Source: Methylotenera mobilis 13
Lineage (GTDB): Bacteria > Pseudomonadota > Gammaproteobacteria > Burkholderiales > Methylophilaceae
DNA length: 64,000 bases
Assembly (NCBI RefSeq): GCF_000384255.1
Contig: NZ_KB913035.1
Location: 2,619,093-2,683,092, forward strand
Reading direction: 5' to 3'
Under the pieces are notes generated by a model. The model was given only the letters and a program-made list of their open reading frames with translations. It was not told the DNA's origin and did not search any database. Shown here in pieces: positions 1,298-10,861 of the stretch (position 1 is the stretch's first letter; each line of letters starts with the position of its first letter). The translations under genes and the position numbers were made by a program.

Positions 1298-1331
1298 ACA
1301 CTCTTCCAATCATTAATCTTTAGCATTTTAA

Positions 1332-2006
1332 TTACAACAAACCACGCTCAGCAAACGAAAGAGTTTGATTGCCTGCCACAATAAAATGATCTAATACACG
1401 CACATCTATCAGTGCCAAAGCTTGTTTCAATTGTTGCGTGATTAGCTCATCTGCTGCGCTCTGTTGTGCAACTCCAGAAGGATGGTTGTGTGCAAAAATA
1501 ACACTCGCAGCATTATGATGAATCGCTCGCTTCACCACTTCTCGAGGATAAACACTCGTTTGGGTAAGCGTGCCATTAAATAGCTCCTCAGCAGCATGTA
1601 AACGATTTTGTGCATCTAAAAACAACACCATAAAAACTTCTCGTGTAAGCGCTCCCAGCTTAAGCACTAAATAGTTGCGTACCTGTTGTGGCGACTGAAA
1701 CACATCTCTCGCTTGTAACTGCTCATTTAAAGCTCGACGACTCATTTCAAAAATTGCTTGCAGCTGCACATATTTACTAGTGCCAATACCATGCACCTGA
1801 CTGAGTTCACGCTCAGTTGCTGCAAAAATACCATTAAGACTACCAAACTGACTGAGTAAGTCGCGCGCCAAATCTACTGCGCTTTTACCGACCACACCGA
1901 CGCGTAAAAAAATTGCCAATAACTCAGCATCAGATAAAGCATCAGCACCCATCTCTATTAGCTTTTCTCTAGGTCGCTCACTAGCAGGCCAGTCTGTAAT
2001 TGCCAC
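1332..2006 (-). CDS. radC: RadC family JAB/MPN-domain protein
   Basis: A 224-residue protein of full family length. An N-terminal helix-hairpin-helix-like region contains HGIGTSKY at residues 72-79. The C-terminal JAB1/MPN metalloprotease-like fold carries the metal motif HNHPSG at 173-178 followed by Asp186. RadC is historically called a DNA repair protein, but its biochemical role is unsettled. In many Betaproteobacteria it lies next to and divergent from coaBC-dut, as here, except that an extra gene (2093-2857) sits between them. Confidence 0.93.
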
Positions 2007-2092
2007 TTAACACCTCTTATTGTTCACGGATTTTAACCGACTAAATTCATTACACTGATATGATCAACACTCGAAGCGACAACTGCTAGCCA

Positions 2093-2857
2093 CTAGCGCA
2101 ACCATCCTATTTCACGTGCAGTCATTGCACCAATCATTGTATGCCTTAAACCTTTAGGGATTTCAGCATCGTTATCATTGATAGGAATGCGGCCGCCCAT
2201 TAGCTCAGCAAAATTTTGTGGGTATAGCGGTATTTTATCTGGCTCAGCATACCCATGAGGATAAATAGGTAAAGTACTCTGCAAATCATACTTATCAGTG
2301 GCATTTAAAGTATGTAACAACTCATGTGCGGTGACTACCAAGTTCTTTTTTGCATAGGCGGAGCTACCAAACAAATTTACACGCCCGATTCGCCCTTTAT
2401 TAAGGGCTGTTGAATGTCCTAATACTCGGTTATTTTCAGGGTCGTGATAAAGTAAATACAATCGTATATCTGGCCGTACATTTACCTTTGGACTATGTTG
2501 CCATGCAAACAACCGAAATTTTAAGCTCCACAGCATAGTACTTAATATGCTGCCATTTTTAGGAGGCTCTGGTGGTAACTCATCGACAATATCACCTAGT
2601 TGCACTTCTATTGGTCGCCGTAAACCTAATTGGTATGACGTAGCTTCTTCTGCAAAGTACTCCGCCATCGGCTCAAAATCATCACGACTGAGGGTTCGCA
2701 AGTAAGCACTAACTTCATCGCTACCATCGGCATTGATTGGATAAACTGCAACGTAAAGATTATGCTTCCAAGCTAAATCAGCTTTATCCAACCAAACTTC
2801 TTGTATAACCGTTGCTAAAATTAGCAGCAGGATGATAATTCTGAATTTACGCCACAT
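2093..2857 (-). CDS. putative membrane-anchored or secreted metzincin-like metalloprotease, unknown function
   Basis: I do not recognise a named family. The 254-residue protein has one hydrophobic segment at residues 6-19, which could be a signal anchor. A zinc-protease motif HELLH occupies residues 178-182. It continues as HELLHTLNATD, matching HExxHxx(G/N)xxD of metzincin-type enzymes with Asp188 as third ligand. A methionine at 220 in AELMGG is suitably placed for a Met-turn. The rest has no repeats or second membrane segment. The domain would face the periplasm if the N-terminus is an anchor. It stands alone between radC and the divergent coaBC. Protease function is inferred from the motif only. 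Confidence 0.6.
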   Translation of the reverse strand: MWRKFRIIILLLILATVIQEVWLDKADLAWKHNLYVAVYPINADGSDEVSAYLRTLSRDDFEPMAEYFAEEATSYQLGLRRPIEVQLGDIVDELPPEPPKNGSILSTMLWSLKFRLFAWQHSPKVNVRPDIRLYLLYHDPENNRVLGHSTALNKGRIGRVNLFGSSAYAKKNLVVTAHELLHTLNATDKYDLQSTLPIYPHGYAEPDKIPLYPQNFAELMGGRIPINDNDAEIPKGLRHTMIGAMTAREIGWLR

Positions 2858-2988
2858 TGTGTATACGCCGCATGAATGTTATTGGTTTTATATGATATCT
2901 ACTATAAAACATTTTCTTTCGTTTCAATGATGCATAAAGAATATTTTATACAAAACAATGTTCGTATTAGAATGAAAGACTTACATCA

Positions 2989-4185
2989 ATGACAAGCATT
3001 ATGCAAAATAAAAAATCAATTGTATTAGGAGTCACTGGGGGAATCGCAGCCTACAAAGCAGCAGAACTCGTACGCCTATTCGTAAAAAATAATATTGATG
3101 TGCAAGTCGTCATGACGCAAGCTGCTTGCCAGTTTATTTCCACCGTCACGATGCAAGCCCTATCAGGTAAACCAGTATTCACAGACATGTGGGATGCATC
3201 AATCCCTAATGGTATGCCACACATCGAATTAAGCCGCGCTGCAGATGCCATCGTTATTGCACCAGCGAGCGCAGACTTCATTGCAAAACTCGTACATGGT
3301 CGTGCTGACGATTTACTTTCCACCCTATGCCTAGCGAGAGACTGTGACTTACTGGTCGCTCCGGCGATGAACAAACAAATGTGGGAGAACCCTGCTACCC
3401 AACGTAATATCGCACAACTAGTCAGCGATGGTATTCACATACTTGGGCCAGACAGCGGTGAACAGGCGTGCGGCGAAATTGGCTTAGGCCGCATGCTAGA
3501 GGCAGAAGACCTACACTATTTAATCAACGCGTATTTCCAACCTAAACGACTTAGAGGCAAAAAAATAATGATTACGGCAGGCGCCACATTAGAAATGATA
3601 GACCCTGTGCGCGCTATTACAAACTTAAGCTCAGGCAAAATGGGATACGCCATCGCCCAGGCCGCTTTTGAAATGGGTGCAGAAGTCACGCTCATCAGTG
3701 GCGCTACTGCACTTACGCCCCCAACTGGGGTACGCAACATTGCAGCAACATCAGCAGGTGCAATGTATCAAAGCGTAATGCAAAACATCGCAAACCAAGA
3801 CATATTTATTGGTGTCGCAGCAGTTGCAGATTACAGCCCAGCGAATTCACAATCACAAAAAATTAAAAAAAGTGAGCAATCACTGACGCTGGAGCTAAAG
3901 CTCAACAAAGATATACTAGCAGAAGTCGCCAGCTTACCTAGTCCGCCATTTTGTATAGGCTTTGCTGCCGAAACCGAAAATCTATTAGAGTTCGCGGAAG
4001 CAAAAAGACAAAAGAAAAAACTTCCATTAATCGTCGCCAACCTGACGAGCGATGCAATGGGCAGTGACAACAACAAAGTCATTCTACTAGACAACAATGG
4101 TAACTATCCACTTGAACCAGCCACCAAAATTGAAGTGGCCAGATCAATATTGAAGCATGTTGCTGACATGCTTCAAGTCAAATAA
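2989..4185 (+). CDS. coaBC: Bifunctional phosphopantothenoylcysteine decarboxylase/phosphopantothenate-cysteine ligase
   Basis: Catalyses two consecutive steps of coenzyme A synthesis: ligation of cysteine to 4'-phosphopantothenate, then FMN-dependent decarboxylation. The CoaC flavoprotein domain spans about residues 1-188, with GGIAAYK at 17-23, the catalytic His78, PAMN at 125-128 and the lid cysteine Cys161 in ACGE. The CoaB ligase domain follows, with TAGAT at 196-200 and NLSSGKMG at 212-219. Its length (398) is normal. A second in-frame ATG at 3001 is possible; neither has a strong ribosome binding site. In relatives dut usually follows directly; here a TonB receptor gene intervenes. Confidence 0.96.
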   Translation: MTSIMQNKKSIVLGVTGGIAAYKAAELVRLFVKNNIDVQVVMTQAACQFISTVTMQALSGKPVFTDMWDASIPNGMPHIELSRAADAIVIAPASADFIAKLVHGRADDLLSTLCLARDCDLLVAPAMNKQMWENPATQRNIAQLVSDGIHILGPDSGEQACGEIGLGRMLEAEDLHYLINAYFQPKRLRGKKIMITAGATLEMIDPVRAITNLSSGKMGYAIAQAAFEMGAEVTLISGATALTPPTGVRNIAATSAGAMYQSVMQNIANQDIFIGVAAVADYSPANSQSQKIKKSEQSLTLELKLNKDILAEVASLPSPPFCIGFAAETENLLEFAEAKRQKKKLPLIVANLTSDAMGSDNNKVILLDNNGNYPLEPATKIEVARSILKHVADMLQVK

Positions 4186-4209
4186 TCAAATATATCAATA
4201 TTGCCAAAT

Positions 4210-4245
4210 GATAGTGCTGTTTGATACAGGTCAAACAGCACTATC
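4210..4245. other. 15-bp perfect hairpin downstream of coaBC
   Basis: Perfect inverted repeat: arms 4210-4224 and 4231-4245 with a 6-base loop. It follows the coaBC stop codon by 24 bases. No thymine run follows on either strand, so it is not a textbook intrinsic terminator. It could protect the coaBC 3' end or act in the leader of the receptor gene at 4345. Confidence 0.6.
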
Positions 4246-4271
4246 AACATCAAAAAACTCATGAAAATCAT

Positions 4272-4304
4272 GATTCTATTATGCAAATTAGCGATTAGAA
4301 TCGC
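4272..4304. promoter_or_regulatory. nested inverted repeats upstream of the TonB receptor
   Basis: GATTCTA at 4272-4278 is mirrored by TAGAATC at 4296-4302. A compact repeat GCGATT-AG-AATCGC occupies 4291-4304. The receptor starts at 4345. These could be operator half-sites, but they do not match the Fur consensus well and no regulator is identified. Confidence 0.25.
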
Positions 4305-4344
4305 ACCCAATTACTTACTCTAGATTAATCAGTTAAGGTCTACC

Positions 4345-6495
4345 ATGCATCACACCACTCCGTTCCCAATCAAACTACTGTCAATAGCCATTATCAGCAC
4401 TTTTAGTATTAACCAACACGTGTACGCAGAAGAAATTGTCAGTGAAAAAATTATCACAGCACCAATCGTCGTGACTGCAACTCGTGTAGAACAAAATAGC
4501 TTCGACCTACCAGTGGCCATTGATGTCGTGGAAAGCAAAGACATCCAAAATGGCCAATTACAAATGACGCTTTCAGAAAGCTTAATTCGTGTACCAGGGA
4601 TTACAGCGCAAAACAGAAACAATCAAGCACAGGATCCGCAAATCTCTACACGCGGATTTGGTTCCCGCTCAAGTTTCGGCGTACGCGGCGTGCGTGTTTA
4701 TGTAGACGGCATTCCTTTGACCATGCCTGATGGCCAAGGTCAGCCTGGGGTAGTAGATTTATCGGCAATTAAAAGCATTGAAGTTATGCGAGGCCCTTTC
4801 TCAGCACTCTACGGAAACTCTTCAGGAGGTGTTATCCAAATGTTAACGAAAGATGCGCCAAAAACTAACGAAGTTGGTGGCACAGTGATGTTTGGTAGCT
4901 ACGGTACCAAAAGACAAATTCTTGAGACTACTGGCACTGCAGAGCAAATTGAATACATGCTCAATGTATCCAATTTTGAGACGGATGGTTACCGAGATCA
5001 CAACTCAGGCAAAAAACAACAAGCCACTGCAAAATTCAAAATCAATATTACTGATGATACAAAATTAACCACCTTAGTAAATTGGTTTGAGCAAGAGGCT
5101 CAGGATCCATTAGGACTCACACGAGAGGTTGCATTCTCCAAACCAGAGAGCGCTGGCGTAGGTGCGATTGACTCAAACACACGTGTTTATCGTAGTCATA
5201 CTCAAGTTGGCTTCAACCTAGAACATCGGATTAACACCAATAATGGCATCAGCCTGATGAGCTATGTTGGCACGAGGGAAAATGAGCAATATCTAGCTCT
5301 ACCATCACAAGCTCCCGTCAACGCAAATGGTAGAGCAAGTGAAATATCGCGCGATTTTTGGGGTGTAGATTTACGTTGGGATAACAATGGAGAAATACTC
5401 CATCGTCCATACAATATTAGTATGGGCTTTACCTACGGGAAAATGAATGATGACAGGACCGATACCAATGCCGACTTTGGTACAAAAAGAACCACCAATA
5501 TCCCTAATAACACTAACTTTGGACTAAATCGACGCGAACAAAACATTTCGTACAACTTTGACCAATACATTCAAGGCAAACTTTCACTCTCAAACAATTT
5601 AGATATTCATGCTGGTGCTAGACACACCAAGGTTAATCTTGAGGTTAAAGATGATTTTATTACAGGCACCAGTGCGAACGGTGATAATAGTGGTAAAGTT
5701 GAATATCAAAAAACCACACCTGTTATCGGTACAATTTGGAAAGTAAATCCACAATTAAACTTGTATGCTAACTTTGGTAAAGGTTTTGAAACACCAACTT
5801 TCATTGAATCAGCATTCGCAAGCTCTGCAGCCAATAGCACTCCAAATCTTGCACTCAGACCTAGTGAAAGCAAAAACTATGAACTAGGCGCAAAAGCATT
5901 CTTAAATGACAACACTCAAGCAAAGCTAACATTGTTTAAAGTAACAACTGATGATGAAATTGTTACCTTAGATAACATCTCAGGACGTGTAAGTTATACA
6001 AACGCTAATAAAACTAACCGTACAGGCATGGAGTTTTCAATAGACTCTCAACTAGATAATAATATTTCGCTGTATGCTGCATATACCTTACTTAATGCAA
6101 AATTTGATTCTGACTTTACTAATAACCTCGGCAGAACAATATTATCCGGCAATAGAATTCCTGGAACATACCGTTCACAGCTATATGGTGAAATCGCCTG
6201 GAAATATATACCTTTAGGTTTCAGTACAGCGTTAGAGGGCCGCCATAATAGTAAAGTTTATGTAGATGACATCAATAGCGACGTTGCACCGTCTTATACC
6301 ATTTTCAACGTAAGAGCAGGCTTTGAGCAACAACTAGGTCAATGGAGCATAAATGAATACTTACGTATTGAAAATATGTTTGATAAAGACTACATAGGCG
6401 GCGTCAGAATCAATGATGGTAATTCAAGATTTTTCGAACCAGGTACAGATCGTAACTACTTATTAGGTCTTAGCGCGAAATATAAATTCAACTAA
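4345..6495 (+). CDS. TonB-dependent outer-membrane receptor, YncD/PqqU-like
   Basis: A 716-residue gated beta-barrel. A signal peptide ends near residue 28 (VYA). A TonB-box-like stretch with VVTATR follows, then a plug of about 120 residues and a 22-strand barrel. The plug carries RGFGSRS, VYVDGIP, MPDGQGQ and RGPFSALYGN-SGGV; the barrel has GKGFETPT and a C-terminal N-F-D-K-x-Y-x-G block. From memory these blocks closely match E. coli YncD, identified as the PQQ receptor PqqU. In a methylotroph this would suit PQQ-dependent methanol dehydrogenase, but the ligand is inferred. The chain ends Phe-Asn rather than the usual terminal Phe. The gene sits alone between coaBC and dut, with its own terminator. 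Other TonB substrates, such as metal chelates, remain possible. Confidence 0.88.
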   Translation: MHHTTPFPIKLLSIAIISTFSINQHVYAEEIVSEKIITAPIVVTATRVEQNSFDLPVAIDVVESKDIQNGQLQMTLSESLIRVPGITAQNRNNQAQDPQISTRGFGSRSSFGVRGVRVYVDGIPLTMPDGQGQPGVVDLSAIKSIEVMRGPFSALYGNSSGGVIQMLTKDAPKTNEVGGTVMFGSYGTKRQILETTGTAEQIEYMLNVSNFETDGYRDHNSGKKQQATAKFKINITDDTKLTTLVNWFEQEAQDPLGLTREVAFSKPESAGVGAIDSNTRVYRSHTQVGFNLEHRINTNNGISLMSYVGTRENEQYLALPSQAPVNANGRASEISRDFWGVDLRWDNNGEILHRPYNISMGFTYGKMNDDRTDTNADFGTKRTTNIPNNTNFGLNRREQNISYNFDQYIQGKLSLSNNLDIHAGARHTKVNLEVKDDFITGTSANGDNSGKVEYQKTTPVIGTIWKVNPQLNLYANFGKGFETPTFIESAFASSAANSTPNLALRPSESKNYELGAKAFLNDNTQAKLTLFKVTTDDEIVTLDNISGRVSYTNANKTNRTGMEFSIDSQLDNNISLYAAYTLLNAKFDSDFTNNLGRTILSGNRIPGTYRSQLYGEIAWKYIPLGFSTALEGRHNSKVYVDDINSDVAPSYTIFNVRAGFEQQLGQWSINEYLRIENMFDKDYIGGVRINDGNSRFFEPGTDRNYLLGLSAKYKFN

Positions 6496-6526
6496 CATTA
6501 TTAATTAGAGCAACTAATCAAACGAT

Positions 6527-6556
6527 AGCCAGTAAATCAATTTACTGGCTTTTTTA
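6527..6556 (+). terminator. intrinsic terminator of the TonB receptor gene
   Basis: Perfect 10-bp stem (6527-6536 with 6541-6550), four-base loop TCAA, followed by a run of T to 6556. It lies 32 bases after the receptor stop codon and isolates it from dut. Confidence 0.9.
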
Positions 6557-6615
6557 TTACCCATAATTAGTGTTTAATAGGCACTTAATTAAATCCAATA
6601 AAAACATACACTATC

Positions 6616-7068
6616 ATGTCCATACTCATCGACCTAAAAATTATAGACGACCGCTTACGCAGTCAGTTTCCAACCTATGCCACACCTGGATCAGCAGGTT
6701 TAGACTTACGTGCCTGCATTGAGTCACCTATCACTTTACAGCCTGGTGAAACCACCCTCATTCCTACTGGCATGGCGATACATATCGACAACACATACTA
6801 TGCTGCACTTATTTTACCGCGATCCGGCCTAGGCCATAAGCACGGTATTGTGTTGGGAAACCTCGTTGGACTAATTGATTCAGACTATCAAGGGCAGCTG
6901 ATGGTATCCTGCTGGAATCGTGGCAACACCGCGTTTGAATTAAACCCGCTAGAAAGAATCGCGCAATTGGTGATTGTGCCAGTCATGCAGGCTGAGTTTC
7001 ATGTAGTCGATGATTTTGACAGCTCAGAACGTGGTGAAGGTGGCTTCGGTAGCACCGGAAAACACTAA
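6616..7068 (+). CDS. dut: Deoxyuridine 5'-triphosphate nucleotidohydrolase
   Basis: Hydrolyses dUTP to dUMP and pyrophosphate, keeping uracil out of DNA and feeding thymidylate synthesis. The 150-residue trimeric dUTPase shows the conserved motifs in order: GSAGLDLRA near residue 26, [10 protein letters not shown] near 76, [13 protein letters not shown] near 89, and the C-terminal P-loop-like [10 protein letters not shown] that closes over the substrate. The start ATG follows an AT-rich gap with little visible ribosome binding site. It normally forms a unit with coaBC; here they are separated by the receptor gene and its terminator, so dut needs its own promoter. Confidence 0.96.
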
Positions 7069-7113
7069 CAAAAAATAATATGTGAATTTACTGAAAAGAA
7101 ACACATATTTAGC

Positions 7114-7143
7114 TTGAAACAAACAAAGAATGTGTACTATAAT
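7114..7143 (+). promoter_or_regulatory. sigma70 promoter of rpmB-rpmG
   Basis: TTGAAA at 7114-7119 and TATAAT at 7138-7143 with an 18-base spacer. Transcription would start about 7150, some 30 bases before the rpmB start codon. Confidence 0.75.
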
Positions 7144-7181
7144 CACGCTCTTTCTCAAAAATAGAGTTCTTGGAGATAACC

Positions 7182-7418
7182 ATGGCACGTGTATGTCAGG
7201 TAACAGGCAAAAAGCCAATGGTGGGTAACAATGTTTCTCACGCACAAAACAAAACAAAACGTCGTTTTTTACCTAATTTGCAAAACCGCAAATTTTGGGT
7301 TGAGAGCGAAAATCGCTGGGTAAGCATGCGTATTACTAACGCTGCGCTACGCACTATCGACAAAAACGGTATTGATGCTGTTTTAGCTGATATGCGTGCT
7401 GCTGGCCAAAAGATTTAA
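7182..7418 (+). CDS. rpmB: 50S ribosomal protein L28 (bL28)
   Basis: Small basic 50S subunit protein, 78 residues, starting [11 protein letters not shown] place the start at the ATG at 7182, preceded by GGAGA with a five-base spacer; an in-frame TTG at 7170 overlaps that ribosome binding site and is unlikely to be used. Only one cysteine is present, so this is the zinc-free form. It pairs with rpmG downstream, the usual proteobacterial rpmB-rpmG operon, under the promoter at 7114-7143. Confidence 0.97.
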
Positions 7419-7454
7419 GCTGCTAACTTAACTTAGCAAATAAAGGAAAGTAAA

Positions 7455-7610
7455 ATGCGCGAAAAAATCAAATTAGAGTCAAGTGCTGGTACAGGTCACT
7501 TCTATACCACTACAAAAAACAAACGTACAATGCCAGGCAAATTAGAAATTAAAAAATTTGATCCAGTCGTACGTAAGCACGTAATGTACAAAGAAACAAA
7601 ATTGAAATAA
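7455..7610 (+). CDS. rpmG: 50S ribosomal protein L33 (bL33)
   Basis: A 51-residue protein beginning [10 protein letters not shown] and ending KETKLK, in good agreement with proteobacterial L33. It binds 23S rRNA near the E site. There are no cysteines, so it is the zinc-independent paralogue type. AAAGGAAAG upstream of the ATG serves as ribosome binding site. It lies 36 bases after rpmB and ends at a bidirectional terminator. Confidence 0.96.
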
Positions 7611-7627
7611 TTGCTTATTTCAGTAAT

Positions 7628-7656
7628 AAAAAAGCTCACTATATGTGAGCTTTTTT
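7628..7656. terminator. bidirectional intrinsic terminator between rpmG and the MscS gene
   Basis: 12-bp stem AAAAAAGCTCAC (7628-7639) with its complement at 7645-7656, loop TATAT. A-runs and T-runs flank both sides, so it can stop the convergent transcripts from rpmG (+) and the MscS channel gene (-). Confidence 0.9.
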
Positions 7657-7701
7657 ATTATCTATCCATTATTCACGCTATGAGTAATAATAAGTTAACC
7701 A

Positions 7702-9000
7702 CTAGCCATCCTTATTCTCATCCTTAACATCAGCTACTGCTGTACCTAATATGCGCACTTCTCTTTGCGGATATGGGATTGATATATTATTGGCCTTAAA
7801 CAATCTCCATATCGCCATAAACAGGTCTGATTGCAAGCTTGCAGTGCCCTCTTCTGCATCATGAATCCACACAGTCAATCTAACGTCAATACCGCTATCT
7901 GCGAAGCCCGTCACTATCGCAGTAGGCTCTGGGGTGACTAACACTCTAGGATGGTCGTCTGCGGCCTTCACAAGCAGTTTCAGCACCAAGTCTAGGTCAC
8001 TTTCATAAGCAACCTGCATCGTGACCAACACCCTTGTATTTCTATCCATACAAGAATGGTTAATCACAGGATTAATAATCAACGTTTCATTCGGAATAAT
8101 GACTTCAGTACCATCAAGCTTTTGCAATACCAAATAGCGTGTACGCAAATCTCGAATAATCCCATAATGAACATCAATCGTCACGATATCGCCAATGCTG
8201 ATTGATTTATCCATCAGCAAGATAAAACCACTGACGTAGTTACTCGCAATACGCTGTAAACCAAAACCCAAACCAACACCTATTGCACCGCCAAATACCG
8301 AAATGAGCGTCAAATCTAAGCCAACCGCAGAAAGTGCAATAAGCACTGCAATAAACAGCAGAAAAACCCTCAACACTTTCGACAACATCACGCGAGTATT
8401 AGCATTGAGTTGATCAACTTGCATGAGCTTGTTTTCAACAAAACGACTTAACCACATTGCAACAAAAATTGTCGTTAATATAGTGAGCAGGCCTTGCAAT
8501 ACTAACAGTAAATTAACCGAGTTCTTACCTATTGTAAATTTAACTGCCTCCAGTGTTTCTAACATTTCTGGCAGTACGCCACTTAAATGCAATGCAAGGA
8601 CCATCCAGATTAATGTGGCAAGGGTATTTTCAAGCGCTTTAAGTACCCCCCCTGGTGCAATGATATAGCGCATCGCATAAACAGCTAATCGAACTGCTGC
8701 CATCGCTAATAACAAATTACTAGCGAGATGAAGCATCGTCGTATGCTGCCAATGACCTAAAACCCACTTGGATATCAAAACAATAACAAGCATGGATAGC
8801 GGAAATAACAAACGGTTAAATGTACCTATGCCTATTTTCCAATGCTCTGGTGCATGGCGCATGACATATGCGCGTATTACCCCATTAATCATCCAGGCAA
8901 TTGCACACGCCATCACAATCACACTAATCTGCCAGCCGGCTACGGGTGTTCCAATATCAGCTAAAATTTCTTGCCAGATAATATCGATACGACTATTCAT
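7702..9000 (-). CDS. MscS-family mechanosensitive ion channel with extended N-terminal membrane region
   Basis: Inner-membrane channel protein of 432 residues, presumed to release solutes on hypo-osmotic shock. Five or so hydrophobic segments precede the MscS core. The pore helix region contains the glycine/alanine-rich GGAIGVGLGFGLQRIASNYVSG pattern (seen around residues 240-260; only short parts quoted: GVGLGFGLQ, SNYVSG). It is followed by the beta domain with SIGDIV and IPNE. This resembles the longer MscS/YbdG-like homologues rather than the 286-residue E. coli MscS. It is 17 bases downstream of mgtE and possibly co-transcribed. Confidence 0.88.
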   Translation of the reverse strand: MNSRIDIIWQEILADIGTPVAGWQISVIVMACAIAWMINGVIRAYVMRHAPEHWKIGIGTFNRLLFPLSMLVIVLISKWVLGHWQHTTMLHLASNLLLAMAAVRLAVYAMRYIIAPGGVLKALENTLATLIWMVLALHLSGVLPEMLETLEAVKFTIGKNSVNLLLVLQGLLTILTTIFVAMWLSRFVENKLMQVDQLNANTRVMLSKVLRVFLLFIAVLIALSAVGLDLTLISVFGGAIGVGLGFGLQRIASNYVSGFILLMDKSISIGDIVTIDVHYGIIRDLRTRYLVLQKLDGTEVIIPNETLIINPVINHSCMDRNTRVLVTMQVAYESDLDLVLKLLVKAADDHPRVLVTPEPTAIVTGFADSGIDVRLTVWIHDAEEGTASLQSDLFMAIWRLFKANNISIPYPQREVRILGTAVADVKDENKDG

Positions 9001-9017
9001 GTCTAAAAGCCTAGGAA

Positions 9018-10454
9018 TTAAATCAAAAAGATTGTGGCCAGTCCTAAAAAGATAAAAAATCCACCACTATCTGTCATTGCTGTAATCAGCACACTAGAAC
9101 CAACAGCAGGATCACGCCCTATCTTATTCATCATTAGCGGGATGACGACCCCCATCAAAGCCGCTAACAATAGATTAAGCGTCATTGCTGACATCATCAC
9201 CAAGCCCAATGGGAAACTTCCGTATAACGCATAAGCCACAGCGCCAATCACACTTCCCCACAGCAAACCATTGAGTAAAGCAACACCCAGCTCTTTAGTA
9301 ATGAGCGACTTCATATTGTGAGAGGCAACCTGCCCTAAAGCTAAACCACGGACAATCATTGTCGTTGTTTGATTTCCAGAGTTACCGCCAACACCTGCAA
9401 CAATTGGCATCAGTGCTGCCAGCGCTACTATTTTCTCAATAGATCCCTCAAATAACCCAATAACTCGCGAGGCAACAAGCGCGGTAATCAAATTTATTGC
9501 AAGCCATGCCCATCTATTTTGTACAGATTTCCATACCGAAGCAAAGAAGTCCTCTTCCTCACGTAAACCAGCCATTGAAAGCATATCGCTCTCAGCTTCT
9601 TCACGAATCAAATCCATGACGGCATCAACTGTGACGCGACCAACCAACTTACCATTTTCATCAACAACAGGTGCTGTCACCAAGTCGTAGCGCTCGAATG
9701 CCTTGGCTGCATCATCTGCTATATCTTCAGGATGAAATATAACGGCATCTTCAGACATAACATCAGAGACGTTTGCATCAAGATCACTCACAACTAGTCG
9801 CTTCAATGGCAACACACCATGCAAAACATCATGACGGTCAACGACAAACAATTTATCTGTATGATCAGGCAAGCCACCTAGTCGACGCATATAGCGCAAA
9901 GCTACTTCCAAAGTAATATCTTCACGTATCGTAACGATATCAAAATCCATAATCGAACCAACAGCGTCATCCGAATAAGATAATGCCGATTGCAAACGAG
10001 CTCGATTCTGCGCATCAAGGCTATCCATCAAGTCCTGAAGCACATCTTTTGGTAAATCTGGTGCTAAGTCTGCAAGCTCATCCGTATCTAGCTGCTCTGC
10101 CGCAGCCAGCAACTCATCGGAGTCCATGTCAGCAATCAATGTCTGCCTTACAGCATCCGACACCTCAAGCAATATTTCGCCATCACGATCAGCTTTTACT
10201 AACTCCCAAACATCCAAACGCTGCTCTAGAGGCAGAGCCTCTAGAATGTATGCAACGTCTGCAGGATGTAAGAACTCTAATTTTTTTTGTAGCTCATTAA
10301 GGTTTTGCTTATGTACCAAAGACTCTATCAGTTCATGATTAGACATCTCTTGGTTGTGAACCATATTCTCAATCAAGCGATGCTTTTCAAGAAGCGATAT
10401 TACCTGTTGTAGGCTCTCGCTCAAACTCTCTTTGGTTTCTTGAATGTCTGCCAT
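9018..10454 (-). CDS. mgtE: Magnesium transporter MgtE
   Basis: Mg2+ channel of 478 residues with the canonical three-part layout. A cytosolic alpha-helical N domain covers about residues 35-165. Paired CBS domains cover about 170-290, where Mg2+ binding closes the pore. Five transmembrane helices follow, with PIVAGVGGNSGNQ, the conserved loop, near residue 348, and a final segment with the invariant DPAVGSSVLITAMTDS pore region (partial motifs DPAVGS and TAMTDS seen). Gating by cytosolic Mg2+ is known for the family. No Mg2+ riboswitch is evident in the 140-base divergent gap to the glutaredoxin-like gene. Confidence 0.95.
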   Translation of the reverse strand: MADIQETKESLSESLQQVISLLEKHRLIENMVHNQEMSNHELIESLVHKQNLNELQKKLEFLHPADVAYILEALPLEQRLDVWELVKADRDGEILLEVSDAVRQTLIADMDSDELLAAAEQLDTDELADLAPDLPKDVLQDLMDSLDAQNRARLQSALSYSDDAVGSIMDFDIVTIREDITLEVALRYMRRLGGLPDHTDKLFVVDRHDVLHGVLPLKRLVVSDLDANVSDVMSEDAVIFHPEDIADDAAKAFERYDLVTAPVVDENGKLVGRVTVDAVMDLIREEAESDMLSMAGLREEEDFFASVWKSVQNRWAWLAINLITALVASRVIGLFEGSIEKIVALAALMPIVAGVGGNSGNQTTTMIVRGLALGQVASHNMKSLITKELGVALLNGLLWGSVIGAVAYALYGSFPLGLVMMSAMTLNLLLAALMGVVIPLMMNKIGRDPAVGSSVLITAMTDSGGFFIFLGLATIFLI

Positions 10455-10594
10455 AATGACCCAATACTATTTTTATTTATTTACTACGCCATTATGATTT
10501 ATTTTTCATAAAAAATAGAATCATTCGGCAAAAAATATGAGTTAATCAGCATAATGAAACGGTAGCTAATACCATCATAGGAACTACAAAAACC

Positions 10595-10861
10595 ATGTTA
10601 AAACTCAATCTTTATACTACATCACACTGCCACCTATGCGAGCAAGCAGAAGCAACCCTAAAAAGCATAATGAACGATTATGACATTAGTTGGATTTCAA
10701 TTGAAATTGCAGATAACGATCAACTACTGGAAGCCTATGGCACAAAAATTCCAGTGATAAAAGTAATTGGTACGAATACTGAGCTTGCTTGGCCATTTGA
10801 TACAGAGACGGTTTTAACTCACATCACACAAATAATACCGAATCAATTGATAAAAAAATGA
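10595..10861 (+). CDS. glutaredoxin-like DUF836 family protein
   Basis: An 88-residue thioredoxin-fold protein with a CxxC motif (Cys12-His-Leu-Cys15) after the first beta strand, and the cis-proline region KIPVI near residue 49. These small DUF836 (YchJ/thiol-isomerase-like) proteins are presumed thiol-disulphide oxidoreductases; the substrate is unknown. It is a single gene, divergent from mgtE, ending at the 20-bp terminator shared with the ribosomal block. Confidence 0.8.
   Translation: MLKLNLYTTSHCHLCEQAEATLKSIMNDYDISWISIEIADNDQLLEAYGTKIPVIKVIGTNTELAWPFDTETVLTHITQIIPNQLIKK

Follow-up and report, generated by a model that had tools for sequence, protein, structure and literature searches.

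The question raised by this locus is why a gene for a receptor of the PqqU type should stand between coaBC and dut in Methylotenera mobilis 13, and whether it arrived there as an acquired cassette, as an earlier note on this DNA had proposed. The window, by which is meant the whole stretch of DNA that was analysed, is 64,000 nucleotides long, and within it the receptor gene occupies 4345..6495 on the forward strand, starts with ATG and encodes 716 amino acids. The open reading frames that flank it on the same strand, at 2989..4185 upstream and 6616..7068 downstream, were named coaBC and dut from a reading of their sequences and mark the locus of the exchange described below; the reported position of the gene within this pair therefore stands. 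The claim that the gene has its own terminator is also borne out, by a terminator-like hairpin at 6527..6550 on the forward strand with 10 pairs and then a T-rich tail, although the evidence for it is modest, with 4 terminator-like sites counted over the stretch scanned where shuffled sequence gave 1.8 +/- 1.2. Between coaBC and pqqU, at 4210-4245, there is also a long inverted repeat, almost perfect but with no evident run of T, which may mark where the coaBC transcript ends. The count of promoter-like sites did not exceed chance (5 against 7.7 +/- 3.1), and across 1300-10600 no Rfam family was found at gathering scores.

The receptor was assigned to the pqqU type from Pfam, NCBIfam, phmmer, signature residues and a fold match. 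Pfam places a Plug domain at residues 54-163 and a TonB_dep_Rec_b-barrel domain at 233-668, both well above their cut-offs, and in phmmer searches of solved structures the nearest relatives are 6v81 (E 2.6e-133) and 9c4o (E 4.6e-132), the structures of YncD and of the PqqU-PQQ complex respectively, E. coli PqqU being the protein formerly called YncD. The same two entries are nearest by fold (9c4o, E 8.5e-49; 6v81, E 2.9e-45), with FecA next at 7.2e-30, so that the fold is closer to PqqU than to other TonB receptors, in an AlphaFold2 model of moderate confidence that was built from 20 sequences, has a mean pLDDT of 61 and is poor in the plug. The likeness to E. coli PqqU extends over the full length of plug and barrel, at 36% identity in the fold match, and the blocks RGFGSRS, MPDGQGQ and RGPFSALYGN that had first drawn attention to the protein are all present and align with the E. 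coli protein. Among 21 NCBIfam families the top match is NF041535 (TonB_rec_PqqU), with 571.7 bits over residues 42-716; this is under the cut-off of 1200, so NCBI's model would not name the protein PqqU, and TIGR01783, the family of TonB-dependent siderophore receptors, scores 191.4 bits, under its own cut-off of 223.5.

The positions of the E. coli residues and the effects of their mutants are taken from a portion of PMC12124388, where the signature of PqqU is given as tyrosine, phenylalanine or tryptophan at E. coli position 99 with arginine at both 304 and 365, and where K274 and R536, important in E. coli, are expressly not required. The aromatic residue at 99, which in E. coli is the tyrosine that stacks on PQQ (PMC12124388, in the portion used), is F111 in the window protein (codon 4675..4677), and the two arginines are R311 (5275..5277) and R371 (5455..5457), all three codons being placed by alignment on the forward strand. 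By this published signature the protein is, as far as sequence can tell, a PqqU, despite the NCBI naming cut-off that it does not reach, and its nearest solved relatives are PqqU and YncD rather than receptors of other ligands. The glutamines at E. coli 84, 121 and 308 are also kept (Q96, Q133 and Q315), as is the arginine at 536 (R548, codon 5986..5988, forward strand, by alignment). Other positions differ, with L317 for Q310, I487 for N477 and F491 for Y481. The lysine at 274 is also absent, the codons aligned with K274 and residue 276 (5185..5193, forward strand) reading V281-x-R283 in place of a lysine and, two residues on, a hydrophobic residue. The earlier concern that the PQQ contacts might not be conserved is thus answered in two ways, as the signature contacts are kept but K274, a contact with a mutant phenotype, is lost; its change to glutamate in E. 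coli slows growth on low PQQ (PMC12124388, same portion).

In a homologue alignment of 137 rows, from which two rows were left out beforehand and in which some genomes appear twice, the aromatic residue at 99 and the arginines at 304 and 365 occur together in 135 rows. Position 274 is V, A or L in 53 rows, every one of which has R or K at 276, and it is K in 72 rows, none of which does; all 5 rows with R at 274 have L at 276, while E274 is found in 6 (one with K276, none in the window's family) and Q274 in one. A positive charge therefore stands at exactly one of the two positions in 131 of the 137 rows, at neither in 6 and at both in none, although the pattern amounts to some 3-5 changes on a tree built without those columns and a sign test is not significant. 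V281 and R283 lie inside a predicted strand, 280-295 of the AlphaFold2 model, and so both should face the same way; R283 probably takes over the positive charge of K274. Among the proteins with this arrangement is one from a genome outside the window's family (L250, from G415 of family f8), a V-x-R PqqU that groups inside Methylophilaceae and may have been transferred.

A receptor with these replacements could by now serve a different ligand, for example a complex of PQQ with metal, a lanthanide chelate or some other carboxylated small molecule. The loss of K274, Q310 and N477 speaks for such a shift, as do the XoxF-like enzymes that the host appears to have, judged by a sequence motif. The source itself, in the portion drawn on, places E. 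coli K274 at the catalytic-metal position of PQQ and proposes that PqqU homologues with E274 co-import metal (PMC12124388). The window protein resembles these homologues in having no lysine at 274 but differs in having valine there with arginine at 276, so that no acidic residue has taken the place of K274, and the positive charge at 276 in all 53 rows with an uncharged V, A or L at 274 tells the same way. With the residues at 84, 99, 121, 304, 308, 365 and 536 all kept as well, a change of ligand is considered unlikely, and PQQ is taken as the ligand in what follows.

If so, what use would a PQQ receptor be to this host? The genome, a single contig of 2.80 Mb, was checked for both synthesis and use of the cofactor, as the earlier note had advised. 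One PqqC and two PqqE exceed their profile cut-offs, and the first PqqE lies in one cluster with pqqB- and pqqD-like reading frames and a 25-residue PqqA-like frame, these three having been read by eye. The second PqqE (G000:C1:1687618-1688658; L178:4550-5957), with a pqqD-like frame adjoining, lies outside the main pqq cluster. The profile for PQQ alcohol dehydrogenases has four matches over its cut-off, of which one has the motif DEWDFAG, presumably that of MxaF, and two have DEWDYDG, presumably that of XoxF. Two matches over the cut-off to HxlA, the hexulose-phosphate synthase, fit the description of the host as a RuMP methylotroph, and TonB has three matches over the cut-off.

The conserved binding residues and the fold suggest that the receptor would bind PQQ at the cell surface and carry it to the periplasm, where the PQQ-dependent methanol dehydrogenases would take up what is imported; in a cell that makes PQQ, the molecules recaptured would include those that had leaked. 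Both scavenging and recovery had been put forward as functions, and since the synthesis genes are present together with MxaF-like and XoxF-like dehydrogenases, recapture fits better than a dependence on scavenging: recapture of its own PQQ is probably the main use of the receptor, with scavenging as a bonus. This differs from E. coli, which makes no PQQ (PMC12124388, in part). The combination is common in the 49 genomes of the genus set, this one among them, in which PqqU (counted at E up to 1e-40) occurs in 39 and PqqC over its cut-off in 46, and 37 of the 39 PqqU carriers have both. Among 32 other relatives in the order, 10 have PqqU, 8 have PqqC over the cut-off and 5 have the two together. 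In a published survey just 23% of PqqU carriers had PQQ synthesis (PMC12124388, in the part consulted), which places this clade in the minority of producers that also import; the point of import there would be for producers to regain cofactor of their own making.

That the gene is a recent insertion into the coaBC-dut pair is ruled out by its distribution, as 40 of the 49 genus-set genomes carry pqqU beside coaBC, dut or both. The insertion is thus old, and what is new is the exchange of alleles at the locus. The three genes follow in order on one contig in 28 of the 49 genomes, named isolates such as Methylophilaceae bacterium 11 (L042) and Methylophilus sp. 14 (L053) having the same order, and in a further 12 pqqU, or a piece of it, is beside just one of the two neighbours; G040 and G025, which are among these 12, have coaBC elsewhere without an adjoining pqqU. 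Four genomes (G017, G022, G023 and G041) have coaBC beside dut without pqqU, and the arrangement is indeterminate in five (G004, G006, G008, G037 and G046). Outside the set, none of the 15 order relatives whose coaBC region was examined has pqqU between coaBC and dut: dut follows coaBC on the same strand in 13 and on the other strand in one, and in one the contig ends. For eight pqqU loci in the family's other genera, of which two share a contig, the flanks retrieved contained neither coaBC nor dut. A search of plasmids by protein turned up 26 records, out of 1019, that had 80% coverage, and none of these was 60% identical or more. In one Methylotenera bin (L056:4977-7096) the pqqU frame stops after 500 codons while the similarity continues to 7096, the result of a broken gene or of a sequencing error. 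The proposal of an acquired cassette therefore fails for the insertion itself, but alleles and barrels have been exchanged at this site, in the window's lineage among others.

Conflict between trees and the pattern at silent sites give good support to an exchange of pqqU alleles by recombination at coaBC-dut in Methylophilaceae. The orientation of pqqU varies, the gene running either with dut or against it, and the class with the reverse orientation takes 3 changes on the PqqU tree but 12 on the CoaBC tree, at least 5 of which are forced by starred branches; on the latter tree it is scattered almost as if the labels had been shuffled (47 of 500 shuffles came out as low), with G030 labelled forward from a piece of 75 amino acids while its other contig belongs to the reverse class. 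Two contigs of one bin, L140 and L141, have flanks that are 92-100% identical except for one block of 200 bases (86%), yet their PqqU proteins are only 49% identical, that of L141 being 93% identical to the PqqU of G027. The bin in question, G047, is 1.5 Mb in size and probably holds several strains, as it has three differing coaBC-pqqU contigs (L139, L140 and L141) with three pqqU alleles. With yet other relatives the difference likewise extends over the entire gene, which may run in either direction.

Within the window's own lineage an exchange of the barrel and not of the plug is supported, relative to G043 and G026, the two nearest relatives by coaBC. DNA identity to these two is 73-94% from coaBC through the plug, falls to 57-73% between roughly 5050 and 6550, and is 86-100% beyond. 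The gene can accordingly be divided on the forward strand into a part with signal peptide and plug (4345..5000, 73-91% identical to G026 and G043, its right limit approximate as the drop falls at about 4950-5050) and a barrel part with approximate limits (5000..6495, 57-73% identical), in which silent sites are at background. At four-fold silent sites the window agrees with G043 at 188 of 318 in the flanks, 41 of 77 in the plug and 39 of 117 in the barrel (p 2.7e-06 for barrel compared with flanks and 0.007 for barrel compared with plug), and with G026 at 178 of 310, 42 of 77 and 44 of 120 (p 1.5e-04 and 0.018). The plug-barrel contrast in the window is by itself moderate, at these p values of 0.007 and 0.018. 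A second pair, G013 and G028, gives 234 of 345 in the flanks, 51 of 75 in the plug and 44 of 136 in the barrel (p 1.6e-12 for flank against barrel, 7e-07 for plug against barrel). Silent identity in the barrel between the window and its two nearest relatives, 33-37%, is that of distant pairs (31 +/- 5%), and it is at most 41% in 20 of 22 pairs, not independent of one another, whose CoaBC proteins are at least 90% identical (rounded).

The trees agree with this division. In the plug tree the window protein falls with G026 and G043 (95*), whereas in the barrel tree it falls with L042, L057, G039 and G036 (99*); the latter tree rejects the grouping with G026 and G043, which had been named beforehand from the CoaBC tree (p-AU 0.009). 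For the whole protein the same grouping is not rejected (p 0.341), which is what a mosaic would give, and for this reason the whole-gene tree is not used for the claim of exchange. The nearest barrel, that of G039, is 73-74% identical, and among the lineages compared no donor of the barrel above 74% amino-acid identity was found.

It could be argued that the barrel has simply diverged fast by vertical descent, through selection on its loops and without recombination. The loops of TonB receptors generally vary quickly, and a milder dip in the barrel is also seen between G043 and G026, which share a pqqU type (58% silent identity against 72% in the flanks). Two further receptors of the same three strains serve as controls: in a ZnuD-like receptor, not found in G013 and G028, there is no drop (plug 46-50%, barrel 49-52% silent identity), and in a BtuB-like receptor, whose barrel is 67-68% identical in amino acids, the drop is weaker than in pqqU (plug 49-51%, barrel 39-42%). 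This BtuB-like receptor (L184:2128-4074, with L188 and L189) is only 72% identical to G043 and G026; its comparison between G013 and G028, which picked up very short frames, is left out. Taken together, the controls and the dip between G043 and G026 show that exchange is not general to these receptors; they also suggest that it may not be unique to pqqU and that the barrel signal may be owed in part to ordinary rapid divergence. Selection on loops does not, though, account for four-fold sites in conserved codons that are at background in the barrel only, nor for a barrel tree in which the window protein changes group and the grouping of its flanks is rejected, and differences of the whole gene, with opposite orientations on near-identical flanks, are impossible by point changes. 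Vertical descent is thus judged improbable as the explanation, and chimeric assembly of metagenome bins still more so. Many of the relatives are indeed drafts, the bin G047 has its three coaBC-pqqU contigs and G030 has two different ones, all of which would suit chimeras; yet G000, G011 and G013 are single contigs, the contig of G028 is 483 kb long, and the separate assemblies G026 and G043 give the same picture. Recombination is therefore retained as the source of the swaps, and would have acted through the conserved flanks or through the plug, giving whole-gene and barrel-only swaps.

Exchange of receptor alleles between strains has a parallel in the FpvA pyoverdine receptors of Pseudomonas, in which the ligand changes with the allele, whereas the PQQ contacts in pqqU are constant. 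By analogy with E. coli, the most likely driver would be evasion of phages or bacteriocins for which the exposed barrel is the target, with the pocket for PQQ kept. YncD (PqqU) is a receptor of E. coli phages, and BtuB, YncD and FhuA are receptors of Drexlerviridae (PMC8594841, in the part consulted), while the binding of PQQ closes loops 7 and 8 of PqqU and reportedly blocks one of the phages that use it (PMC12124388, in part). The window protein resembles BtuB and FhuA, which phages use, in being an outer-membrane nutrient receptor, and may by analogy serve phages too. Against this, alleles may have been exchanged by neutral hitch-hiking, or in competition for the ligand through better capture of PQQ, a reading that we regard as a serious competitor with somewhat less than an even chance of being right. 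It is favoured by PQQ being a shared good (PMC12124388, same portion); the binding contacts, however, have stayed constant while the remaining barrel changes, and the part played by YncD in E. coli, both as an entry point for phage and as one that bound PQQ can close, tells against it.

On balance the explanation that we hold to be rather probable as a whole is that of a PqqU-type receptor which would recapture PQQ, has the V281/R283 site, and has had its allele or barrel exchanged at coaBC-dut in escape from phages or bacteriocins. A bolder version is offered tentatively, and we would not put it ahead of its negation: that pqqU is an allele-exchange locus of Methylophilaceae at which strains trade the exposed barrel, or the complete gene in one orientation or the other, while the pocket stays constant, because the receptor is at once a recapture pump and a phage entry, and that V-x-R, a third arrangement of charge, may admit PQQ-bound calcium or lanthanide. 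Neither V-x-R nor the exchange of barrel or gene was met in the literature covered, namely part of PMC12124388, in whose supplementary figures V274 may show, passages of PMC7193533, PMC10875860 and PMC8594841, and searches on PqqU, YncD, FpvA, and PQQ with TonB in Methylophilaceae or Methylotenera.

The arrangements at 274 and 276 amount to a natural mutant series for the binding of PQQ and of PQQ with metal. The exchange of barrels and genes, in turn, points concretely to conflict among methylotrophs over a single receptor, and the natural alleles of pqqU offer material for asking what phages touch.
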